Source: Corallococcus llansteffanensis
Lineage (GTDB): Bacteria > Myxococcota > Myxococcia > Myxococcales > Myxococcaceae
Assembly: GCF_003612055.1 (NCBI RefSeq)
Contig: NZ_RAWB01000013.1
Span: 1-41,767, forward strand
Direction of reading: 5' to 3'
DNA: 41,767 bases
Part shown: piece by piece, positions 9,945-19,922 of the stretch
Position numbering within the stretch: the stretch's first letter is position 1
Layout of the letters: the number at the start of each line of letters is the position of its first letter
Position numbers and translations under genes: made by a program
Notes under the pieces: generated by a model
Databases searched by the model: none
The model's input: the letters and a program-made list of their open reading frames with translations, nothing else
What the model was told of the DNA's origin: nothing

Positions 9945-10502
9945 CTAGCTGGAACTGCTCAACGCCCTGCTGGAGCCCAGCCGCTCCCATGCGATGTGCT
10001 CAGCGATGGCGCCGATGGCATATGCGACGTCATTCTCGTCGCCATTGGCATCCTCATGCTCGTAGCCAACGACATGCATCCACTCATGAAGCCAGTGCCC
10101 CACGCCGGAGGCCACGTCGTCGTGAGCGACCCAATTGTTGATGTGATAGAGATTCGTATGGATGACCGGGCCGCCAAGGTTGGTGGAGCCTACGGTCTTC
10201 TTGTTCAAGACCCGAATGGGTCGGAATCCGTAATAGAACGCGCGGAGGTTGATCCGAAGATCGATCTCATGGTCTGCGTCCGTCCCCAACTCCCGACCCT
10301 CGAACAGATACCGCATGAGGGCATCCTTCGAGTGGTCGGTGCCGTGATGGTGGATGTAGCTGAACTTCTGCTGTGCGACCGCATCGCGGAAGCCTTGCGT
10401 GTTCACGACCTCCTCCATCAACTGGATGGCGCGCTGAACGAACGCTTTCGTTTTCTCGCCGGCATTGGTCAGCTCGTGCAGCGTGACTTTGAGCGGAGTC
10501 AT
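9945..10502 (-). CDS. small putative zinc metalloprotease (HExxHxxGxxH)
   Basis: Protein of 185 aa, no signal peptide. It carries GHWLHEWMHVVGYEHEDANG, i.e. the full metzincin-like zinc site HExxHxxGxxH with His139, Glu140, His143 and His149. Upstream a strand-like segment (GPVIHTNLYHINNW) matches the usual edge strand above the active site. Overall element order resembles the HEFVH protein at 5719-6306, though that one lacks the GxxH part. AAGGAGA precedes the ATG. It sits 25 bp downstream of the HsdR-N-like gene on the same strand, so the two are probably one transcript; a toxin or effector role for the protease is possible but speculative. Confidence 0.72.
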   Translation of the reverse strand: MTPLKVTLHELTNAGEKTKAFVQRAIQLMEEVVNTQGFRDAVAQQKFSYIHHHGTDHSKDALMRYLFEGRELGTDADHEIDLRINLRAFYYGFRPIRVLNKKTVGSTNLGGPVIHTNLYHINNWVAHDDVASGVGHWLHEWMHVVGYEHEDANGDENDVAYAIGAIAEHIAWERLGSSRALSSSS

Positions 10503-10527
10503 TCCATTCTCCTTGAGCGTTGTGGGC

Positions 10528-11808
10528 CTACTGGCTGGAGACCACCTTGAGCGTGGTCCTGGGGTCCTCGCCCGAGAGGACCTCGTCCTTGACCGTGAGG
10601 GACAGCTCCAGGCTCCGGGCCACCAGCGCCTTGAGCGCCCACACCTGGGGGATCGTCTCGATGTAGACCCGGCTCAGCCCGAAGGCAGCGGGGGCCGCCT
10701 CGACCTCGAATCCCGCCGCGAGCGTTTTCGCCTCCTCGACCGGGATCCAGGTGACGATGCTCTTGCGCTTGCCGTTGCCGAAGAACCGCACGAACCACTT
10801 CGTGGGTCTCTTGAAGGACACGTTGAAGTAGTTCGAGGTGTCCCGGTAGAGGATGTCGTCCGCCGGGTGGCCATTCTTGCCGCAGATGTCCCGGACGACC
10901 GCGAAGAACGCCAGCTCCTCCTCAGTGGTCTCGACCGTGGCTCGACCCTTGTCATCACCTGGAGCGCGAGGCTCCGTTTCAAAGGGCCTGGCGGAGTCCG
11001 CCTTCACCACGTTGGGCCCTTCCACGGCGGCGGGCGGCTCCGTGCCCTCGTTCAGGCGCTGGATGCGTTCCTTGAGCTTGTTCAGGAAGTCATCGCCCAT
11101 CACCCGGAGCAGGGTGGGTTCGATGGCCTCCTTGGCGACCTCCGCGAGGCGCTCCATCACCGCCGTCGTCCGCTTCCCCTTGTAGATGTCCTCGGTGAGC
11201 CACTTGAGGAAGCCTTCATTCTCGCCGGGCGCCTTCAGAACCGCCGAGAGCTTGTCGATCATGCTCTGGCGGTACCGGCTGTTCTCCGCGTCTGTGATGA
11301 GCGTCGTCGCGTTGAAGGACTCACGGCTGAACTTGGACAGGAACTTCGCGACCTTCGCCCAGTCGGCCTTCGAGTCCTCCAGGGAGAACGTGAAGAAGGG
11401 CTCCGGATCCATGACGTTGGGGTTCTCCAGATCTCCGAAGAAGAGATAGTGGCACCCATCCGTGATGATGCCGAAGTGGAGCTCCGGGAGCTGGGACAGG
11501 TAGCGCGCCAGCTGCTGGGCGCGTGACTTGAGGTCCGTGCCCAAGGGCTTGGTCTCGATGACGATGAGCGGCTTCGCGCCGGTCTGGTCGAAGATGGCGA
11601 AGTCCATCCGGTCCGGGAGCTTCTTCCCGTCGCCCTGGACGAAATCCGCCGCGTACTCCAGACGCACCTCGCGCGGGAAACCGGGGTCGTAGCCGAGCAG
11701 CTTGATGAAGGGGACCACCAGCGCGAGCTTGGCCGTCTCCTCGTTGGTGATGAACGACTTGGAATCCTGATAGCGCTTCACCAGCTCCAGCAGTTGATTC
11801 GCGTCCAT
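10528..11808 (-). CDS. orphan HsdR N-terminal (PD-(D/E)xK) nuclease-like protein
   Basis: Protein of 426 aa. The N-terminal half is the type I restriction HSDR_N domain: an NEETAK helix near 22-27, then DRMDFAIF with Asp69, and LIVIETKPLG with Glu85 and Lys87, a complete PD-(D/E)xK site. There is no helicase motor, so it is not a type I R subunit. A charged linker near 250-290 is followed by a conserved-looking C-terminal domain (YRDTSNYFNVSFKRPTKWFVRFFGNGKRKS), found in stand-alone HSDR_N proteins of phages and defence islands. Start ATG 11808 follows a GGGGGG ribosome-binding stretch. A 15-bp palindrome 31 bp upstream may control it. Likely a nucleic-acid-cleaving or abortive-infection-type protein; inferred. 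Confidence 0.8.
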   Translation of the reverse strand: MDANQLLELVKRYQDSKSFITNEETAKLALVVPFIKLLGYDPGFPREVRLEYAADFVQGDGKKLPDRMDFAIFDQTGAKPLIVIETKPLGTDLKSRAQQLARYLSQLPELHFGIITDGCHYLFFGDLENPNVMDPEPFFTFSLEDSKADWAKVAKFLSKFSRESFNATTLITDAENSRYRQSMIDKLSAVLKAPGENEGFLKWLTEDIYKGKRTTAVMERLAEVAKEAIEPTLLRVMGDDFLNKLKERIQRLNEGTEPPAAVEGPNVVKADSARPFETEPRAPGDDKGRATVETTEEELAFFAVVRDICGKNGHPADDILYRDTSNYFNVSFKRPTKWFVRFFGNGKRKSIVTWIPVEEAKTLAAGFEVEAAPAAFGLSRVYIETIPQVWALKALVARSLELSLTVKDEVLSGEDPRTTLKVVSSQ

Positions 11809-11838
11809 GGTGTTCCCCCCCTGCAATCCGCCGAACCT

Positions 11839-12079: not shown

Positions 12080-13228
12080 ATGGCGGCCTCTGACACCCTG
12101 CCTCCCGAGAACCCTCCGCCCGCGATCCTGGACCTCGTCGGCTTCCGCCGCCGGTCGAGCAGGTACGGCTCGGCCACCCAGCTGCTCTGGAACAGGCTGG
12201 AGAACGACGCCTCGCTCTGCGAGCTGTGTTGGATCCGCAAGGATTTGACGGCCGAGGACCGGGTCATCCTGGAACAGTGCAATCAGAGGCTGGGGGTGGC
12301 CCGGCGCTGCCTCGACAAGCAGCTCTGGCGTTGGTCCTTCTCCTTCTGGCAGATCATCCACGAGGTCGACGGCCTGCTGCTGCTGGTCATGCCCCGGCAC
12401 ATGCTGCTGCCCCATGCCCTGGAGATTCAGCAGCAGTTCGAACGGAGGGTGACGGACTCCGCCCAGAAGACACTCTGGCTGGGCGCGGATCGGACCTCGG
12501 GGCCCCTGCCCCAGTGCGTCCGTGTGCTCCGCGGGGAGGCGCTCCTCTCCAGCGATCCTGAAGCCTCCCTGCCTGAAGCGGAGCGCCTGGCGCGGTGCCG
12601 CCATGTGCTCTGGGGCGCGCAGGGGGTCATCAACGATCGCGTGGACAAGACCTTCTGGCAGCTCTCCATCAATGTCTCCATCCAGGTCCTCAGCACCCTG
12701 CTGCTCATCACGCTCTCCCTCATCGCGTTGCTGGGCTTCAATCGCTCCCTGGTCACGACCTGGCCTGGAGAGCTCGTTCCCCAGGGGCTGCTCCTGTTCA
12801 GCCTCGTGGGCGCCGCCGGCGCCGTGGTGTCCAACATGCTCTCCAAGGAGCGCTTCGTCGTCGCGACCGGGGCGACGAGCCGCTTCTTCGCCTATCACCT
12901 GCTGGTCAAGCCCGCCGTTGGCGCCTTCGCGGCCCTCACGCTCCTCTTCGTCGAGCAGTCCAACCTGCTGCTCTCGGTGATTCCTCGCGACCCCGTGAGC
13001 GCCGCCGGCTCCAACCCGGCCCTCCTGAACATCGTCGTGCGGGACTGGCGCGCCGTCTTCTTCACCCTGGCGGCCCTGTCAGTGGCCGCGGGGTACTCCG
13101 CCGACAGGTTCCTGAGCTCCATCATGAACAACGTGCTCAGCAGGCTGCTCGGGCAGTCGGAGAAGCTGCTGCCTTCCAGCGCTCCCCCGGAGGCCGGCGC
13201 CGCCTCCCGGCGCGCGGAGCCGAAGTAG
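12080..13228 (+). CDS. four-helix membrane protein of unknown function beside RADAR
   Basis: Not recognised. A hydrophilic N-terminal half of about 190 residues (rich in Arg/Leu/Glu) is followed by four hydrophobic helices: IQVLSTLLLITLSLIALL, LLLFSLVGAAGAVVSNML, AFAALTLLFVEQSNLLLSVI and VFFTLAALSVAAGYSA. No signal peptide. The stop is only 12 bp from the stop of rdrB on the other strand, and the start is divergent from the HsdR-N gene. Some RADAR loci carry an accessory membrane protein (SLATT or Csx27-like), so an accessory role is possible; the topology here (four helices at the C-terminus) is not clearly either. The frame is open upstream: GTG 11927 (AAGGGG, spacing 6) and GTG 12008 (AAGGAGG, spacing 11) are alternative starts. 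Confidence 0.75.
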   Translation: MAASDTLPPENPPPAILDLVGFRRRSSRYGSATQLLWNRLENDASLCELCWIRKDLTAEDRVILEQCNQRLGVARRCLDKQLWRWSFSFWQIIHEVDGLLLLVMPRHMLLPHALEIQQQFERRVTDSAQKTLWLGADRTSGPLPQCVRVLRGEALLSSDPEASLPEAERLARCRHVLWGAQGVINDRVDKTFWQLSINVSIQVLSTLLLITLSLIALLGFNRSLVTTWPGELVPQGLLLFSLVGAAGAVVSNMLSKERFVVATGATSRFFAYHLLVKPAVGAFAALTLLFVEQSNLLLSVIPRDPVSAAGSNPALLNIVVRDWRAVFFTLAALSVAAGYSADRFLSSIMNNVLSRLLGQSEKLLPSSAPPEAGAASRRAEPK

Positions 13229-13240
13229 GCGACAGCCGCC

Positions 13241-16033
13241 TCACGCCGGGGCTTTGCCGCGGGCCCGGCGGTGCGCCGCGGGCCGCCTCGCGTAGGCCCC
13301 CAGCGCGTCCATCAGCTCCTCCGACATGCGCTCCGCGCTGGGATGCCAGGGCGTGGTGAAGCGCGCGTCCATGCTCGTCTGCCGGATGGTGGACAGCCAC
13401 TCGTGCACCACGCGTTCGGAGTAGCCCGCGCTCCGCGCCGCCTCGTGCAGCAGGGAGTACTCCCGGAGGAGGAAGGTGGAGAAGGTGATGGGGTCGTCCG
13501 CGCCCACCGCGATGGGCACCGGCGGCGGTGCTCCCTCCTCCGCGCGAGGCGGAAGCAGCCGCAGGATGGGGTGGTTGCGCAGGTCCAGCAGGTTGCCGAT
13601 GAGCAGGTTGCTGGAGGGATTCACCTCCACGACTGTGCCCCGCGCTCCCACGTACCGGCGCAGCGCGTCCTGCGCCGACCGCAGCGCGGCCACCTCCGCG
13701 CCATCCAGGGGGATGTCCACCAGCTGCTGCCCGCGCCGGAACACGCGCTCGTCCTCCCGGTACGCCTCGATGAGCTCCTGGACGCGCCGGGGGTTGCGCA
13801 CCCGGATCCAGTCCAGCCGGCGGGAAGCCCGGCTGAAGGCGTCCAGCCCCACGCCCACCGCATCCTGTGCCAGGGGCGGACACCAGAGGTTGTGCAGCAC
13901 GTGGTGGGCCTCGGCCAGCACGTGTGGCGCGACACACCTGCCAAACACACCCTCGGACAGCTCGCGGATGAGGTTCTCCACCTGCTCAGGCCGTCCCGGT
14001 GGGGCCTCCGCGTTCAAGCCCGAGGGCAGCCGGTAGCTGCCGTACAGCCGCCACTCGAAGACCAGGTCCCACAGCCGCTCCTCGGCCGGCATCATCACCG
14101 CGCCCACGGACTCCGCCCACGTCCCGGGCTCCACGCCCAGCGAGGTGGCGTGTCCCAGCCGCCCGCCCCAGTGGTCCAGCAGGTAGTGCAGGCATTCGTA
14201 GATGCGGCGCAGCCCCTCCATGAGGTGCCGGTAGTCCTCGCCCACGTGGCCCGTCAGCCGCAGGGGTGGGGCGCCCCGGGCCGCCGGCCGGGCCGCGGCG
14301 CGGGCGGCCTCCCACCGCACGTAGCGGTACAGCGGCGCCAGCACCCACGTGGGCACGCTCAGCTCGTCCGACGCGACGTCCAGCCCCCGCACCAGCCAGA
14401 GCGACAGCGGCACCGCCCGCAGCAGCTCCACCAGCGCTTCCACCTGCGTCGACTGCGAGACGAAGTAGTCCGCGTAGCGGCCTCCCAGCCGGATCAGGCC
14501 CTCCGGAGCCGGCTCCGCGTACGTCCCCATGGCATGCGCGGGCGGCAGCCCCTCCCTCCAGTGGCGCTTGGGGTCGCGCGCCTTGAGCAGGTGCAGCACC
14601 AGGCCGAACTCCGGCTGGCGCCCGTCGCCCGTGCCCCTCCCCACGCGCTCCAGCACGCGCCGCCACGAGCGCGTCAGCCCCCACAGCTCCTCCGCCATGA
14701 GGATGGAGTCGTTCATGAGGCGGGTGCGCACCTCCAGGGCGGCGATGGGCTGCTCGCCCCCCGCCACCGAATAGGAGACCTCGGCGCGCACGGCGTGCAG
14801 GGGCCGCTTCATCGCGCCCAGGCGGTCGTAGAAGCGGATGAACCACTGGAGGCCCGCGGTCAGGGGCCGCTGCACGTAGGTGCGGTAGCTCAAGCAGCGC
14901 ACCCGTTGGACCTGCCAGAAGAGGCGGTTGAAGTGCGGGTCCGGCGTTCCGGCCTCTTCCTGCTGCCGCATCCGCCGCAGCCCGAAGCGCACCAGCCAGC
15001 GCTCCCCCGCGTTGGGCGCGTGCAGCCCCATCCGCAGGGCGATGGGGTCGCACCGTCGCCACACCTCCTCGAGGGTCTCGGGGAGCTCGGCGCCGCCGCG
15101 GGCCGCCAGCGGGTGGAGGTCCCCGTAGAGCTCGCGCAACTCGTCCAGCTCCGGCAGGACCTCGAGGCGGGCGCGCGAGAGCGCCTCCAGCGTCCGCGCG
15201 AGCACCCGGCGGCGCTGGGGCATCCAGACGGAGGACTCCCGCAGGCCCTGCACGAAGTCCAACAGGGGGCGCCTCCCATCTCGCAGGATGACCTCCGCCA
15301 GGACGCATCGGGCCACCGCGGCCGCCAGCAGCCAGCGAAGCATCGTCTCGCCGTCCCCGAAGAGGAGCCCCGGCCCCGACAGCAGGCGCGCATCCAGGGC
15401 CGGATCCGCGATGGCGGTCAGCAGCGAGGCCCACAGCAGCGGGAAGTCCATGCCCGCGTTGACGTGGTGGTGCACCTCCGTGACGCCCCGGTCCAGCAGG
15501 TGGCGCATCAGCAGGGGCGGTTCGATGTCCACCCGCGTGGGCGGCGGCTCCACCGGCACCGCCGACATCAACAGGTCCTCCGGCATGGCGAAGGTGAGCC
15601 AGCGGTAGTGCGTGAGCGCGTCCACCGACCCGGCCTCCGTGTCCTGGGCGACGACGGTGACCCCTGGCCGGCGCTCCAGGTGGGTGTCCGCCAGGTGCAG
15701 GAGGTAGCCGGCCATGGACACCCGCCGCGGCGGATCCCTCTGGCCGCGGATGTGCCGGCGCGAGTCGAACCAGAACACGTCCCGCACCGCGATGAGGCGG
15801 TCCAGCGACCAGCCGCTGGCGTGCTCCGACAGGGTCTTCTCGCAGTCGCGCCACAGCGCCCGCGTGGCGCCCGCGTCCGGCCCTTCCAGCGAGGGCACCA
15901 GCTCCGTCAGCGCCTCCTGGAAGGCCCGGAGGCTGGTCAGCGGGAAGCTGGCCACCTCGGCGCGCACGTAGGCCTCCGGCACGCGGCGGGGGGCGATGTT
16001 GCCCTGGGCATTGCGCGGTCCGTCAGTGGTCAT
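13241..16033 (-). CDS. rdrB: RADAR adenosine deaminase RdrB
   Basis: Protein of 930 aa with every active-site element of the adenosine deaminase fold, spread over a very long chain: EVHHHVNAG (His188/His190, zinc), LTGHVGED (His596, Glu599; HAGE-like), GRLGHATSLG (His628), VEVNPSSN (803-809; E.CP.SN-like) and VGADDP (Asp846/Asp847). Ordinary deaminases are about 340 aa; the large insertions between motifs are what RdrB of the RADAR phage-defence system shows. RdrB deaminates adenosine in RNA and/or free nucleotides on infection, working with RdrA. The start ATG lies inside the last codons of rdrA (11-bp overlap), so translation is coupled. The frame is open upstream of the ATG, but that part is antisense-like noise within rdrA. 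Confidence 0.88.
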   Translation of the reverse strand: MTTDGPRNAQGNIAPRRVPEAYVRAEVASFPLTSLRAFQEALTELVPSLEGPDAGATRALWRDCEKTLSEHASGWSLDRLIAVRDVFWFDSRRHIRGQRDPPRRVSMAGYLLHLADTHLERRPGVTVVAQDTEAGSVDALTHYRWLTFAMPEDLLMSAVPVEPPPTRVDIEPPLLMRHLLDRGVTEVHHHVNAGMDFPLLWASLLTAIADPALDARLLSGPGLLFGDGETMLRWLLAAAVARCVLAEVILRDGRRPLLDFVQGLRESSVWMPQRRRVLARTLEALSRARLEVLPELDELRELYGDLHPLAARGGAELPETLEEVWRRCDPIALRMGLHAPNAGERWLVRFGLRRMRQQEEAGTPDPHFNRLFWQVQRVRCLSYRTYVQRPLTAGLQWFIRFYDRLGAMKRPLHAVRAEVSYSVAGGEQPIAALEVRTRLMNDSILMAEELWGLTRSWRRVLERVGRGTGDGRQPEFGLVLHLLKARDPKRHWREGLPPAHAMGTYAEPAPEGLIRLGGRYADYFVSQSTQVEALVELLRAVPLSLWLVRGLDVASDELSVPTWVLAPLYRYVRWEAARAAARPAARGAPPLRLTGHVGEDYRHLMEGLRRIYECLHYLLDHWGGRLGHATSLGVEPGTWAESVGAVMMPAEERLWDLVFEWRLYGSYRLPSGLNAEAPPGRPEQVENLIRELSEGVFGRCVAPHVLAEAHHVLHNLWCPPLAQDAVGVGLDAFSRASRRLDWIRVRNPRRVQELIEAYREDERVFRRGQQLVDIPLDGAEVAALRSAQDALRRYVGARGTVVEVNPSSNLLIGNLLDLRNHPILRLLPPRAEEGAPPPVPIAVGADDPITFSTFLLREYSLLHEAARSAGYSERVVHEWLSTIRQTSMDARFTTPWHPSAERMSEELMDALGAYARRPAAHRRARGKAPA

Positions 16034-18704
16034 GGCTGGCGCCACCCTGGAGGTGCTCCAGGGGGTCGCCCTCCCGGTCCACGGCCTGGAACCACGTCCG
16101 CACCACGGCGTCGAGCCAGTCGTAGTACAGGCCCGTGTCCCGGCCCTCGTCCTTCCCAAGGTGGCGGCGGAGCGCCTCGGACGCGCCGGAGCGCCCCACC
16201 GCGGCGCGCACCATCTGTTCACGGAGCCGCGTCCGCCGGGGCCCATGGTGGCTCCAGTACGCCACCAGCTCGTCCCAGGCCTTGTTCGCTCCCGCGTCCC
16301 CCGACGGCCAGTGCAGCAGCTCGCTGGGGGCGGGGGCCGGCGCGAACTCCGGCCGCACCAGCAGGGGCAGCGCGTTCTGGAGCCACACCCGGGCCGTCCA
16401 CAGCCGGTCGGACCCCACGCTGTAGGTCCGGATGTCCTCCAAGAGCTTCGCCACCGTGTCGCGCACCCGCTGCTCGTAGGGCGCCAGCACGGTGGCGCGC
16501 CCCCTTGCCTGGACCACCGACTCCATCCCCTGGTGCGCGTCGCCCCAGTCCCATCCGCCCAGCTCCCGGCCCGACACCGAGCAGATGTTCTCCACCCAGG
16601 CCGCCAGGATGAAGCGGTGGTGGGCGCTGACCTTCAGGCGCGAGTCCCGCATGTTGTCGACCTTGAAGAACCCGTCCGCCGTCCTCTTCAGGAACGCCTT
16701 CCACTGCGCGGTGAAGATGGCGAACTCGACGAAGGTCTTCCAGGTGGGAAGGCTCCACCAGCACTCGAGTTGGACGAGCGGCTCGGGGTGCGCGGTGGAG
16801 TCCACCCACAGCTCGTGCATCGTCACGACCAGCTCGGGGCTCATCTCGAAGGGCGTCACGTCCGGGTTCAGCACCCGGGGCGGCTCGAAGAGCATCAGCA
16901 CGTCGTGCAGCAGCATGAGCCAGCCGGCCACGTTGCCGGGCAGGGGCACGCTGGGGCCCTCCCGGTCCACGTCACCCAGCATCAGCACCACGTCGTGGAA
17001 GTGCCGCAGGTGCAGCTCGCTGATGAGCACCCGTTCGTTCGCCTCCGCGCCGCCGTTGCCCTCCCGCTCCGGTCGCGGCCACTCCAGGACGTCCGACAGG
17101 GTGGTCCGCTTGGAGCGGCGCACCGGCTTGCCCGTCAGGTCCAGGAAGATGAGCCCCTGGTCGTCATACCGGAGGATCCGGTTGAGCAACTGCTGGCTCG
17201 CCCAGGCCGGCAGATCGCTTTCATCAATGGCGTTGCGCAGCATCTCCGTGGCCACCCGGACGGTCTGCTCCCCCTCCGAGACGGCGGCCTCCTCGGAGGA
17301 GGCGTGGGTGCCCTGGAGCTCGCGCCGGGCGGCGTGCCAGAGGTCCTGCAGGGTGCGCGCCGGCAGGCTGAGGGCGAGCTTGCCCGCGTGGGTGAGGATG
17401 ACCTTGCGCTGGGGCGCGTCCCGCCCCTGCCGCAGGGCCTCGCGGTAGGTCGTCTTCACCGCGTCGGAGAGCCGGGGCTCCAGGTTGAGGAGGTCCGCGA
17501 AGGAGGCCAGCACCTGCGTCCTCTCCCGCTTCGGGGGCAAGGGCAGCCGGAGCTGCTCCAGGAGACTGCCCAGCGTCAGCCGTGCGTCCTCCGGTTCCAC
17601 CCCCTGGGGGCAGAAGTCCCACGCCTTGTAGGGATCCACGGGCCCCAGGTCGATGCGGTAGCTGGGCGGCAGCGCGCGGCGCAGGGTGGTGGCCGACTGG
17701 CGCCGGGCGATGGAGAGCGTCTCGTCCTGGCCCGCGGTCCCGATGCCCGCCTGCCCGGAGAGGATGAGCTCCTTCTGGAAGGAGCGCTCCATGAAGAGCT
17801 GGAACTCCTGGTGGCCCGCGGCCAGCACGAACCAGAGCCGGGGGCTGGCCACCATGCGGGTGAGCTTCACGATGTTGTGGAGGTGTTCGATGCTGCGGTC
17901 CACGTTGTCGATGGGCAGGACGAGGATGACCTGCTCGCCCTGGGCGGTGCCGAAGCGGGGCAGGGACAGCGTCTTCGCCACATCCTCCATGGCCCGCGTG
18001 AAGCGCGGCTGGAAGGTGGCGTAGATCTCCGCGGCCTTGATCTGCTGCTCCGCGCGCGCTCGCGTGTCGAGCGTCGACGCGCTGTCCTCCCACATGAACG
18101 AGGCATCCCGGATGAGGTGATCCAGCTTTCCCCAGGCCTCTTCCGCGCTCTCCTCGAGGATGGAGGAGGACCACCTGCCGTGCCCGGTGCTCGGGGACGT
18201 GTCCTCCTGGGGCGCGTCCAGGGCGGCGCGCACGCGCACCAGCAGGGTGGCCAGGAGGTTGGCCCCCGGGGGAACCGGTTCCAGGTCGAGCGGCTCCAGC
18301 CACACGACGCGCCCCTCGATGCGTTCGAGTGTCGTGCCCAGGTCCCGCCGCATCGCCTCCCTCCCCGACGCCAGCGCCTCGCGGGTCCCTGCCTCCAGGT
18401 GCCCTCCCGGCTTCAGCCCGAGGAAGGCCCTCCAGTTGCGCAAGGCCTGGACGGCGCTGAGCAGGACGGTGGTCTTCCCCGAGCCCCGTGGGCCGGAGAT
18501 GAGCAGGCTGGTGGAGAGGTGCTCGTCCCGGCTCCCCCTCATGTCCAGGCTGCTTCCGCAAGCGGCCTCCAGCCAGGACAGCAACTCGTACAGCCCCCGC
18601 TGCGTGGGCTCCAGCAGGTCGTCCCAGGGGAAGGCCCTGGCTTCGGGAAAGGGCGTGGGCACGTAGTGGCGCGTCTCGTCCGTGCGGCCCGGTTTCGTGT
18701 CCAT
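16023..18704 (-). CDS. rdrA: RADAR ATPase RdrA
   Basis: Protein of 893 aa. Near the N-terminus LLISGPRGSGKTTVLL gives a Walker A P-loop at residues 71-78; VILVLPIDNVDRS (259-271) is the Walker B with acidic residues, and WFVLAAGHQEF follows as a sensor-like strand. The rest is a large helical region without known motifs. Size, P-loop position and tight coupling to rdrB match RdrA, the AAA+-like ATPase of RADAR, which in studied systems forms rings and docks on RdrB cages. No SD is seen; TATCCT (18710-18715) ends five bases before the ATG, which could give a leaderless transcript. A 78-bp gap separates it from the upstream hydrolase gene on the same strand. Confidence 0.87.
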   Translation of the reverse strand: MDTKPGRTDETRHYVPTPFPEARAFPWDDLLEPTQRGLYELLSWLEAACGSSLDMRGSRDEHLSTSLLISGPRGSGKTTVLLSAVQALRNWRAFLGLKPGGHLEAGTREALASGREAMRRDLGTTLERIEGRVVWLEPLDLEPVPPGANLLATLLVRVRAALDAPQEDTSPSTGHGRWSSSILEESAEEAWGKLDHLIRDASFMWEDSASTLDTRARAEQQIKAAEIYATFQPRFTRAMEDVAKTLSLPRFGTAQGEQVILVLPIDNVDRSIEHLHNIVKLTRMVASPRLWFVLAAGHQEFQLFMERSFQKELILSGQAGIGTAGQDETLSIARRQSATTLRRALPPSYRIDLGPVDPYKAWDFCPQGVEPEDARLTLGSLLEQLRLPLPPKRERTQVLASFADLLNLEPRLSDAVKTTYREALRQGRDAPQRKVILTHAGKLALSLPARTLQDLWHAARRELQGTHASSEEAAVSEGEQTVRVATEMLRNAIDESDLPAWASQQLLNRILRYDDQGLIFLDLTGKPVRRSKRTTLSDVLEWPRPEREGNGGAEANERVLISELHLRHFHDVVLMLGDVDREGPSVPLPGNVAGWLMLLHDVLMLFEPPRVLNPDVTPFEMSPELVVTMHELWVDSTAHPEPLVQLECWWSLPTWKTFVEFAIFTAQWKAFLKRTADGFFKVDNMRDSRLKVSAHHRFILAAWVENICSVSGRELGGWDWGDAHQGMESVVQARGRATVLAPYEQRVRDTVAKLLEDIRTYSVGSDRLWTARVWLQNALPLLVRPEFAPAPAPSELLHWPSGDAGANKAWDELVAYWSHHGPRRTRLREQMVRAAVGRSGASEALRRHLGKDEGRDTGLYYDWLDAVVRTWFQAVDREGDPLEHLQGGASHDH

Positions 18705-18782: not shown

Positions 18783-19922
18783 TCAGGCGGGGGGCCTGCC
18801 CACCGTGAAGTCGAGCACCCGCTCCCAGACCGCGTGGAAGTCCTTCTCCTGGAAGCGGGAGCCTGACTTCAGCCAGCTGATGTATTTCTCGGGCTCGTCG
18901 AAGTGGCCCAGGACGTCCAGGTGGTCGGCTTTCGCGACGTGGACCATCTGTCCCCAGACCTGCGAGCGGCTGGGGACGATGCCGTCGCTCCACGACTCGA
19001 ACTTCCCGCCGAAGGCGTCCTGGAGGGCCTGGGTCTGCGCCGGCGTGCGCTCGGGAATCCTCAGCTCCGCGGAGAGGGGCGCGCTCCTGCCATACAGGAA
19101 GCAGAAGATGGCGTAGAGGAACGAGTCCGGCGGCAACAGCATGCGGGGGGACAGGCGGCGGAGCAGGCTGGGCGGCGGCGCGCCCGTGACGACGCTGCCG
19201 TAGCGCACGCCCTCCCGGTCCGCTGTGTTCGCGTTGAAGGCCTGCGCGCTGACCGGCATGAGGTCGCGGATCAACGTCTGGTCTTCTCCCACCTGGCTGA
19301 AGAACCGGATGAGCTCCTCGCGCTCGCTGTCGGAGAGGTCCGCCGTCAGCCGGGCGATCTGATTGAAGAGGTTGGGCGGGAGCTCCGCCCGCTCGCCCAG
19401 CAGGACGAGCCGGTAGCACGCCTGGAGCGCGGCGGCCCTGAAGGGCATCGCCTCGCGGTGCAGGGTGAGGAAGGTGAAGAGCCACAGGTAGCGCAGCAGC
19501 GTCTTGCCCAGGTCGCCCTGGTGGAAGAAGGTCGCCAGCGGTGTGCCGTGATGCGGGGTGGCGATCGTCACCACCGAGCGCACGCGCTTCACGAAGGCCG
19601 GAGCCTCCTGGGCCATGCGCGGTGAGACGACGCTCCGCGCATCCAGCCCGCCCGTGGAGTGCCCGACGAGGTGGAGCGCCGCGTCGTCCTCGTTCGCGGT
19701 CCGGGCCATCTCCCGGAACACGTCGCGCGCCCGCGCCTCGAGCCCGGAGGTGGGGGAGGAGGCCACGGCATGCACCTGTGCGTCGATGCCGCGCTCCTTG
19801 AGCCGCTGCTGGAGCAACCCGGGGACGTGCTGGAAGTAGGCGATGCGCTCCGTTTCCTTGTCACCCATCTGGGTGAAGCCGAAGAAACCGGGGACCAGAT
19901 AGACGCGGTGCCTTGTGGCCAT
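18783..19922 (-). CDS. lipase-like alpha/beta hydrolase
   Basis: Protein of 379 aa. It begins directly with the first hydrolase strand (VYLVPGFFGFT), has the nucleophile elbow GHSTGG (Ser89), the lipase hallmark TPHHGTPLA, and a C-terminal SDGIVPSRSQVWG...KADHLDVLGHF that supplies the acid and His. It resembles triacylglycerol lipase/PGAP1-like esterases acting on lipids or acyl esters. No signal peptide, so probably cytosolic. It lies directly upstream of rdrA on the same strand (78 bp), so it could be co-transcribed with RADAR, but such hydrolases are also common unlinked in myxobacteria. No SD; a TAGACT -10-like box ends six bases before the ATG. Confidence 0.83.
   Translation of the reverse strand: MATRHRVYLVPGFFGFTQMGDKETERIAYFQHVPGLLQQRLKERGIDAQVHAVASSPTSGLEARARDVFREMARTANEDDAALHLVGHSTGGLDARSVVSPRMAQEAPAFVKRVRSVVTIATPHHGTPLATFFHQGDLGKTLLRYLWLFTFLTLHREAMPFRAAALQACYRLVLLGERAELPPNLFNQIARLTADLSDSEREELIRFFSQVGEDQTLIRDLMPVSAQAFNANTADREGVRYGSVVTGAPPPSLLRRLSPRMLLPPDSFLYAIFCFLYGRSAPLSAELRIPERTPAQTQALQDAFGGKFESWSDGIVPSRSQVWGQMVHVAKADHLDVLGHFDEPEKYISWLKSGSRFQEKDFHAVWERVLDFTVGRPPA

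Follow-up and report, generated by a model that had tools for sequence, protein, structure and literature searches.

A probable divergent chromosomal RADAR anti-phage system with a linked membrane-protein gene in Corallococcus

RADAR pairs an AAA+ ATPase, RdrA, with an adenosine deaminase, RdrB. Its ATP-to-ITP chemistry and the defence provided by the systems of E. coli, C. rodentium and S. suis have been described, and its published frequency is <1% over all genomes (PMC9994260). For the dITP-signalling Kongming defence, the roles of KomC and KomB have been reported (PMC12948488). In the literature searched, we found no paper on RADAR in Corallococcus.

Here, we analysed a window of 41,767 nucleotides that constitutes one entire contig of the 10.5 Mb genome of the predatory soil bacterium Corallococcus llansteffanensis. 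Its nearest relatives are Corallococcus species, in agreement with the myxobacterium-like origin proposed in the initial annotation. The window very probably carries a divergent chromosomal RADAR anti-phage system that is accompanied, in its clade, by a membrane-protein gene, mp3. The locus represents a known type of system in a highly diverged form; it is linked to an unclassified membrane protein and shows an unusual fixation in one genus. A high-GC version had been expected to widen the family; the family is indeed extended to a myxobacterial case, but occurrence beyond the enterobacteria is not itself new, as 75 genera in 7 phyla were already known to harbour RADAR (PMC9994260).

The rdrA-rdrB pair

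The rdrA-like gene (16023..18704, minus strand) encodes a protein of 893 aa, the AAA+ ATPase of RADAR, and the rdrB-like gene (13241..16033, minus strand) a protein of 930 aa, its adenosine deaminase. Both begin with ATG, and the end of rdrA overlaps the start of rdrB by 11 bp (16023..16033, minus strand), exactly as initially annotated. The longest mechanical open reading frame of RdrB comprises 1001 aa; we took the 930-aa start as the right one because homologues begin at that position. The two frames are open over 2.7-2.8 kb with a third-codon-position GC of 0.94-0.95, which equals that of real genes in the same genome, and full-length homologues of both genes exist in identical order. The frames are therefore not due to chance.

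The P-loop and all deaminase motifs named at the outset are present in the sequences. RdrB, encoded on the minus strand, contains the metal-binding HxH (H188, H190; 15464..15472), HVGE with the catalytic glutamate (H596-E599; 14237..14248), GH (G627, H628; 14150..14155), EVNPSSN (803-809; 13607..13627) and DDP (846-848; 13490..13498). At the HxH, HxGE, GH and DD positions, 88-90 of the 90 RdrB-like proteins in an alignment share identical residues, the remainder showing gaps, and the catalytic residues are identical in the annotated E. coli and Aliivibrio RdrB of this alignment. In RdrA, also on the minus strand, the Walker A motif GPRGSGKTT (residues 71-79; 18468..18494) has G74, G76 and K77 invariant among 53 aligned sequences. 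The Walker-B-like stretch VILVLPIDNVD (residues 259-269; 17898..17930), with D266 invariant in the same set, corresponds in the alignment to the E. coli RdrA sequence DDID.

A search against RdrA and RdrB profiles had been suggested as a check. Both proteins match the PADLOC profiles as single sequences (4e-34 for RdrB, 8e-4 for RdrA), but they fall below the curated cut-offs of the NCBIfam models, with 142 against 800 bits for RdrB (NF041744) and 25 against 600 bits for RdrA (NF041743), both of which are equivalog annotation models that do not span the whole RADAR family. Twelve relatives scanned with NF041744 gave a best E of 4.9e-53. The scores lie so far under the cut-offs that routine annotation would miss the pair. 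Against the PDB, the RdrB sequence alone matched E. coli RdrB (8fnw) at 4e-26, and a profile of 69 relatives matched it at 8e-80. The single RdrA sequence gave no significant PDB match. With a profile of 53 relatives, E. coli RdrA ranked first at 4.4e-9 with Walker A and DDxD aligned, followed by generic AAA+ proteins at 0.0016 or weaker.

The predicted structures point in the same direction. The RdrB model (pLDDT 91.8) aligned to E. coli RdrB (8fnv) over 701 of 770 residues with a Z of 31.8 and an rmsd of 3.6; alignments to ordinary adenosine deaminases extend over only about 310 residues. For the RdrA model (pLDDT 86.9), all 16 Foldseek matches at E<=0.001 were RADAR RdrA. These best PDB matches scored a Z of 18-21, as compared to 13 for the next family, BrxC. 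The C-terminal half of RdrA fits the known RdrA structures loosely, being aligned to residue 818 with an rmsd of about 10 A. Finally, almost every complete locus has rdrA immediately upstream of rdrB. Profile matches, modelled folds, the catalytic residues and the order of the two genes thus all support the proposed identity of the pair as RADAR; homology, fold, catalytic residues and gene order are direct observations.

A linked membrane-protein gene

The initial two-gene reading missed a linked membrane-protein gene, as well as the near-universal presence of the system in the genus. This gene, mp3 (12080..13228, plus strand), encodes 382 aa laid out as a soluble N-terminal half followed by 3-4 hydrophobic helices. 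It is convergent with rdrB, the two stop codons being 12 bp apart. All 14 Corallococcus genomes with the window's RADAR clade contain mp3, and neither of the two genomes without that clade does (0/2).

The linkage, itself directly observed, occurs in three relative orientations. In an Anaeromyxobacter MAG and in UBA5297, mp3 lies downstream of rdrB in the same direction. At a second RADAR copy in Corallococcus AS-1-6 (G011), an mp3 homologue is divergent and upstream of rdrA, and genome G004 retains a remnant of this arrangement. The linkage outlasts these changes of orientation, which suggests a shared function. An exclusive association with RADAR was rejected, as homologues of mp3 also occur elsewhere in myxobacteria. 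The Archangium-type and Methylococcales loci of the window's RdrB clade are without mp3.

No curated family matched mp3 above threshold. Sub-threshold matches were found in some members (DUF4257, best 0.0014; YLATT, best 0.036), there was no SLATT match in Pfam, and the window protein had no PADLOC match. A search with the YLATT family PF20303 matched nothing, controls included, and is therefore uninformative. Most likely, mp3 is an accessory that would place the complex at the membrane, or an extra effector; these are the obvious candidates because small membrane proteins are also part of other RADAR subtypes (PMC7699616, PMC11676413). A more elaborate scheme, inspired by Kongming dITP signalling, would make the locus a fixed tripartite system. 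The inosine nucleotides that RdrB produces would then serve as a signal and not only as a poison, and would gate mp3, with damage by mp3 to the infected cell's membrane as the result; we consider this scheme unlikely.

Two further arrangements were seen around mp3 homologues. A 1061-aa fusion (L242:10612-13797, also L241 and L243) adjoins mp3 about 3 kb from an rdrA-rdrB pair of the remote type; it combines MJ1316, endonuclease/phosphatase, 2'-5' RNA ligase-like and poly(A) polymerase domains and is apparently an RNA-end repair protein. In Archangium-like genomes (L246:5889-7289, also L248 and L249), a remote mp3 homologue has, at a distance of about 3 kb, a SIR2-like gene and, after it, a Ham1-like gene (inosine triphosphatase family). 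We take these two to be the gene types of KomC and KomB of Kongming, respectively. A motif search revealed no deaminase gene nearby.

Other neighbours were rejected as components. The upstream lipase-like gene (18783-19922) is retained only in the nearest relatives, and an HSDR_N-type gene (10528-11826) and a 185-aa gene (9945-10502) were not found at the other Corallococcus loci. The latter two (window 9945-11826) stand beside mp3; in G002 (L025:12204-12439), the HSDR_N gene survives only as its two ends.

Distribution, inheritance and selection

Scanning a single genome from each species, we confirmed 297 stretches that encode RdrB relatives and read the best 80 of them. In the RdrB tree, a well-supported clade unites the window with Myxococcota, Methylococcales and a small number of other taxa; enterobacterial RADAR lies far outside it. 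Within Corallococcus, the window's RADAR clade is present in 14 of 16 genomes; one of the others carries a remote type (G007) and one carries none (G014).

The trees of RdrB and rpoB are concordant for the group surrounding the window, but G004 changes side between them, for which reason strict vertical descent was rejected. The pattern is best explained by largely vertical inheritance and some relocation. A phage-borne origin was rejected, as phage records and viral contigs yielded no relative, and so was a plasmid origin, given only six remote plasmid matches. A clean empty insertion site was not found; the flanks are rearranged between species.

Three loci of unusual make-up were noted. The second, diverged RADAR copy of Corallococcus AS-1-6 is seemingly split over two contig ends (L172:7951-11228 and L038:1-3599). 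In Oceanirhabdus, two RADAR-like pairs are arranged in tandem (L108:4544-17351). In Rhizobium, plasmid pRLN3 carries a gene for adenylosuccinate synthetase, an enzyme acting on IMP, after a RADAR-like pair (L130:7040-8641).

Pairwise dN/dS was 0.20-0.43 for RdrB, 0.37-0.71 for RdrA, 0.38-0.65 for mp3 and 0.02-0.04 for rpoB, values that are meaningful only relative to one another, as the strong GC bias depresses dS. All three proteins of the locus lie below 1, with RdrA and mp3 above RdrB. Conservation of RdrA is highest around the ATPase core (residues 251-350) and lowest at the C-terminal end. The low C-terminal conservation fits the published proposal that this domain is the infection sensor (PMC9994260).

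The distribution raises the alternative that the pair is a domesticated, RADAR-derived machine adjusting purine nucleotides in Corallococcus physiology (predation, starvation, fruiting) and not an anti-phage system. Strong RdrB matches, defined for this count of 195 Myxococcota genomes as E below 1e-200, occur in 15 of the 16 Corallococcus species genomes versus 15 of 179 other Myxococcota, the GC of the locus is like that of the remainder of the contig, and flanking genes are common within subgroups, all of which would suit domestication. The same flanking genes differ between the subgroups, however, one species carries a second copy and another a remnant, and RdrA and mp3 evolve fast, like immune genes, in comparison with rpoB. 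We regard domestication as quite improbable.

Proposed mechanism and comparison with known systems

From characterised RADAR (PMC9994260) we infer how the system would work here, including ring and shell assembly, ATP-to-ITP chemistry, a phage trigger and an abortive outcome. The RdrA AAA+ ring, a predicted heptamer, would sense infection and dock on the RdrB shell, a predicted dodecamer; docked RdrB would deaminate ATP and dATP to ITP and dITP, and these would poison the nucleotide pool, so that phage growth would be aborted. In the window's clade, mp3 may join the pair for membrane placement of the complex or as an added effector. Near genus-wide presence is unusual for a rare defence system and counts against a reading as RADAR defence, as do the sub-cut-off NCBIfam scores, the missing PDB match of RdrA alone, the loose C-terminal half of RdrA, the occurrence of mp3 away from RADAR and the several same-clade loci without mp3. 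A different two-gene conflict system, in which the ATPase would drive the giant deaminase on RNA or a free nucleoside instead of ATP, is highly improbable: the RdrB core is common to adenosine and AMP deaminases and the earliest activity claimed for RADAR was RNA editing (PMC7699616), but RdrB matches RADAR RdrB over its whole chain, beyond the deaminase core, its partner is RdrA by fold, and a biochemical study found efficient ATP deamination with only a minor RNA signature (PMC9994260).

Judging by the 297 stretches with RdrB relatives from one genome collection, much of the RADAR family falls under current annotation thresholds. Chromosomal, present almost throughout the genus and hosted by predatory bacteria that can be cultured, the Corallococcus system lends itself to the study of trigger and retention, and the unclassified membrane protein mp3 is a candidate third RADAR component.

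Compared with E. coli RADAR (PDB 8fnv, 8fnw, 8hr7, 8hr8), the Corallococcus pair shares the position of rdrA directly upstream of rdrB, the whole-chain RdrB fold, the AAA+ part of RdrA and all catalytic residues. It differs in that identity over structurally aligned residues is about 19% for RdrB and 13% for RdrA, and in that its RdrB belongs to a separate tree clade. Furthermore, the E. coli operon examined has no annotated membrane-protein gene directly adjoining, unlike the Corallococcus locus with mp3. The RdrA of Streptococcus suis RADAR (8fnu) shares the fold, with a Z of 18.4 over 348 residues, even though sequence similarity is barely detectable (profile E 0.34). The Csx27- and SLATT-associated RADAR subtypes (PMC7699616, PMC11676413) likewise combine the RADAR pair with a membrane-protein gene; mp3 itself gave no SLATT match in Pfam. 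Finally, two other defence deaminases invite comparison: the CRISPR-associated deaminase Cad1, whose deaminase core is common with RdrB (Z about 20-22), and KomA of Kongming, where the signal is dITP (PMC12948488). Corallococcus RdrB departs from both in its size, roughly threefold that of a plain deaminase, in its match to RADAR RdrB over the whole chain and in its pairing with RdrA.
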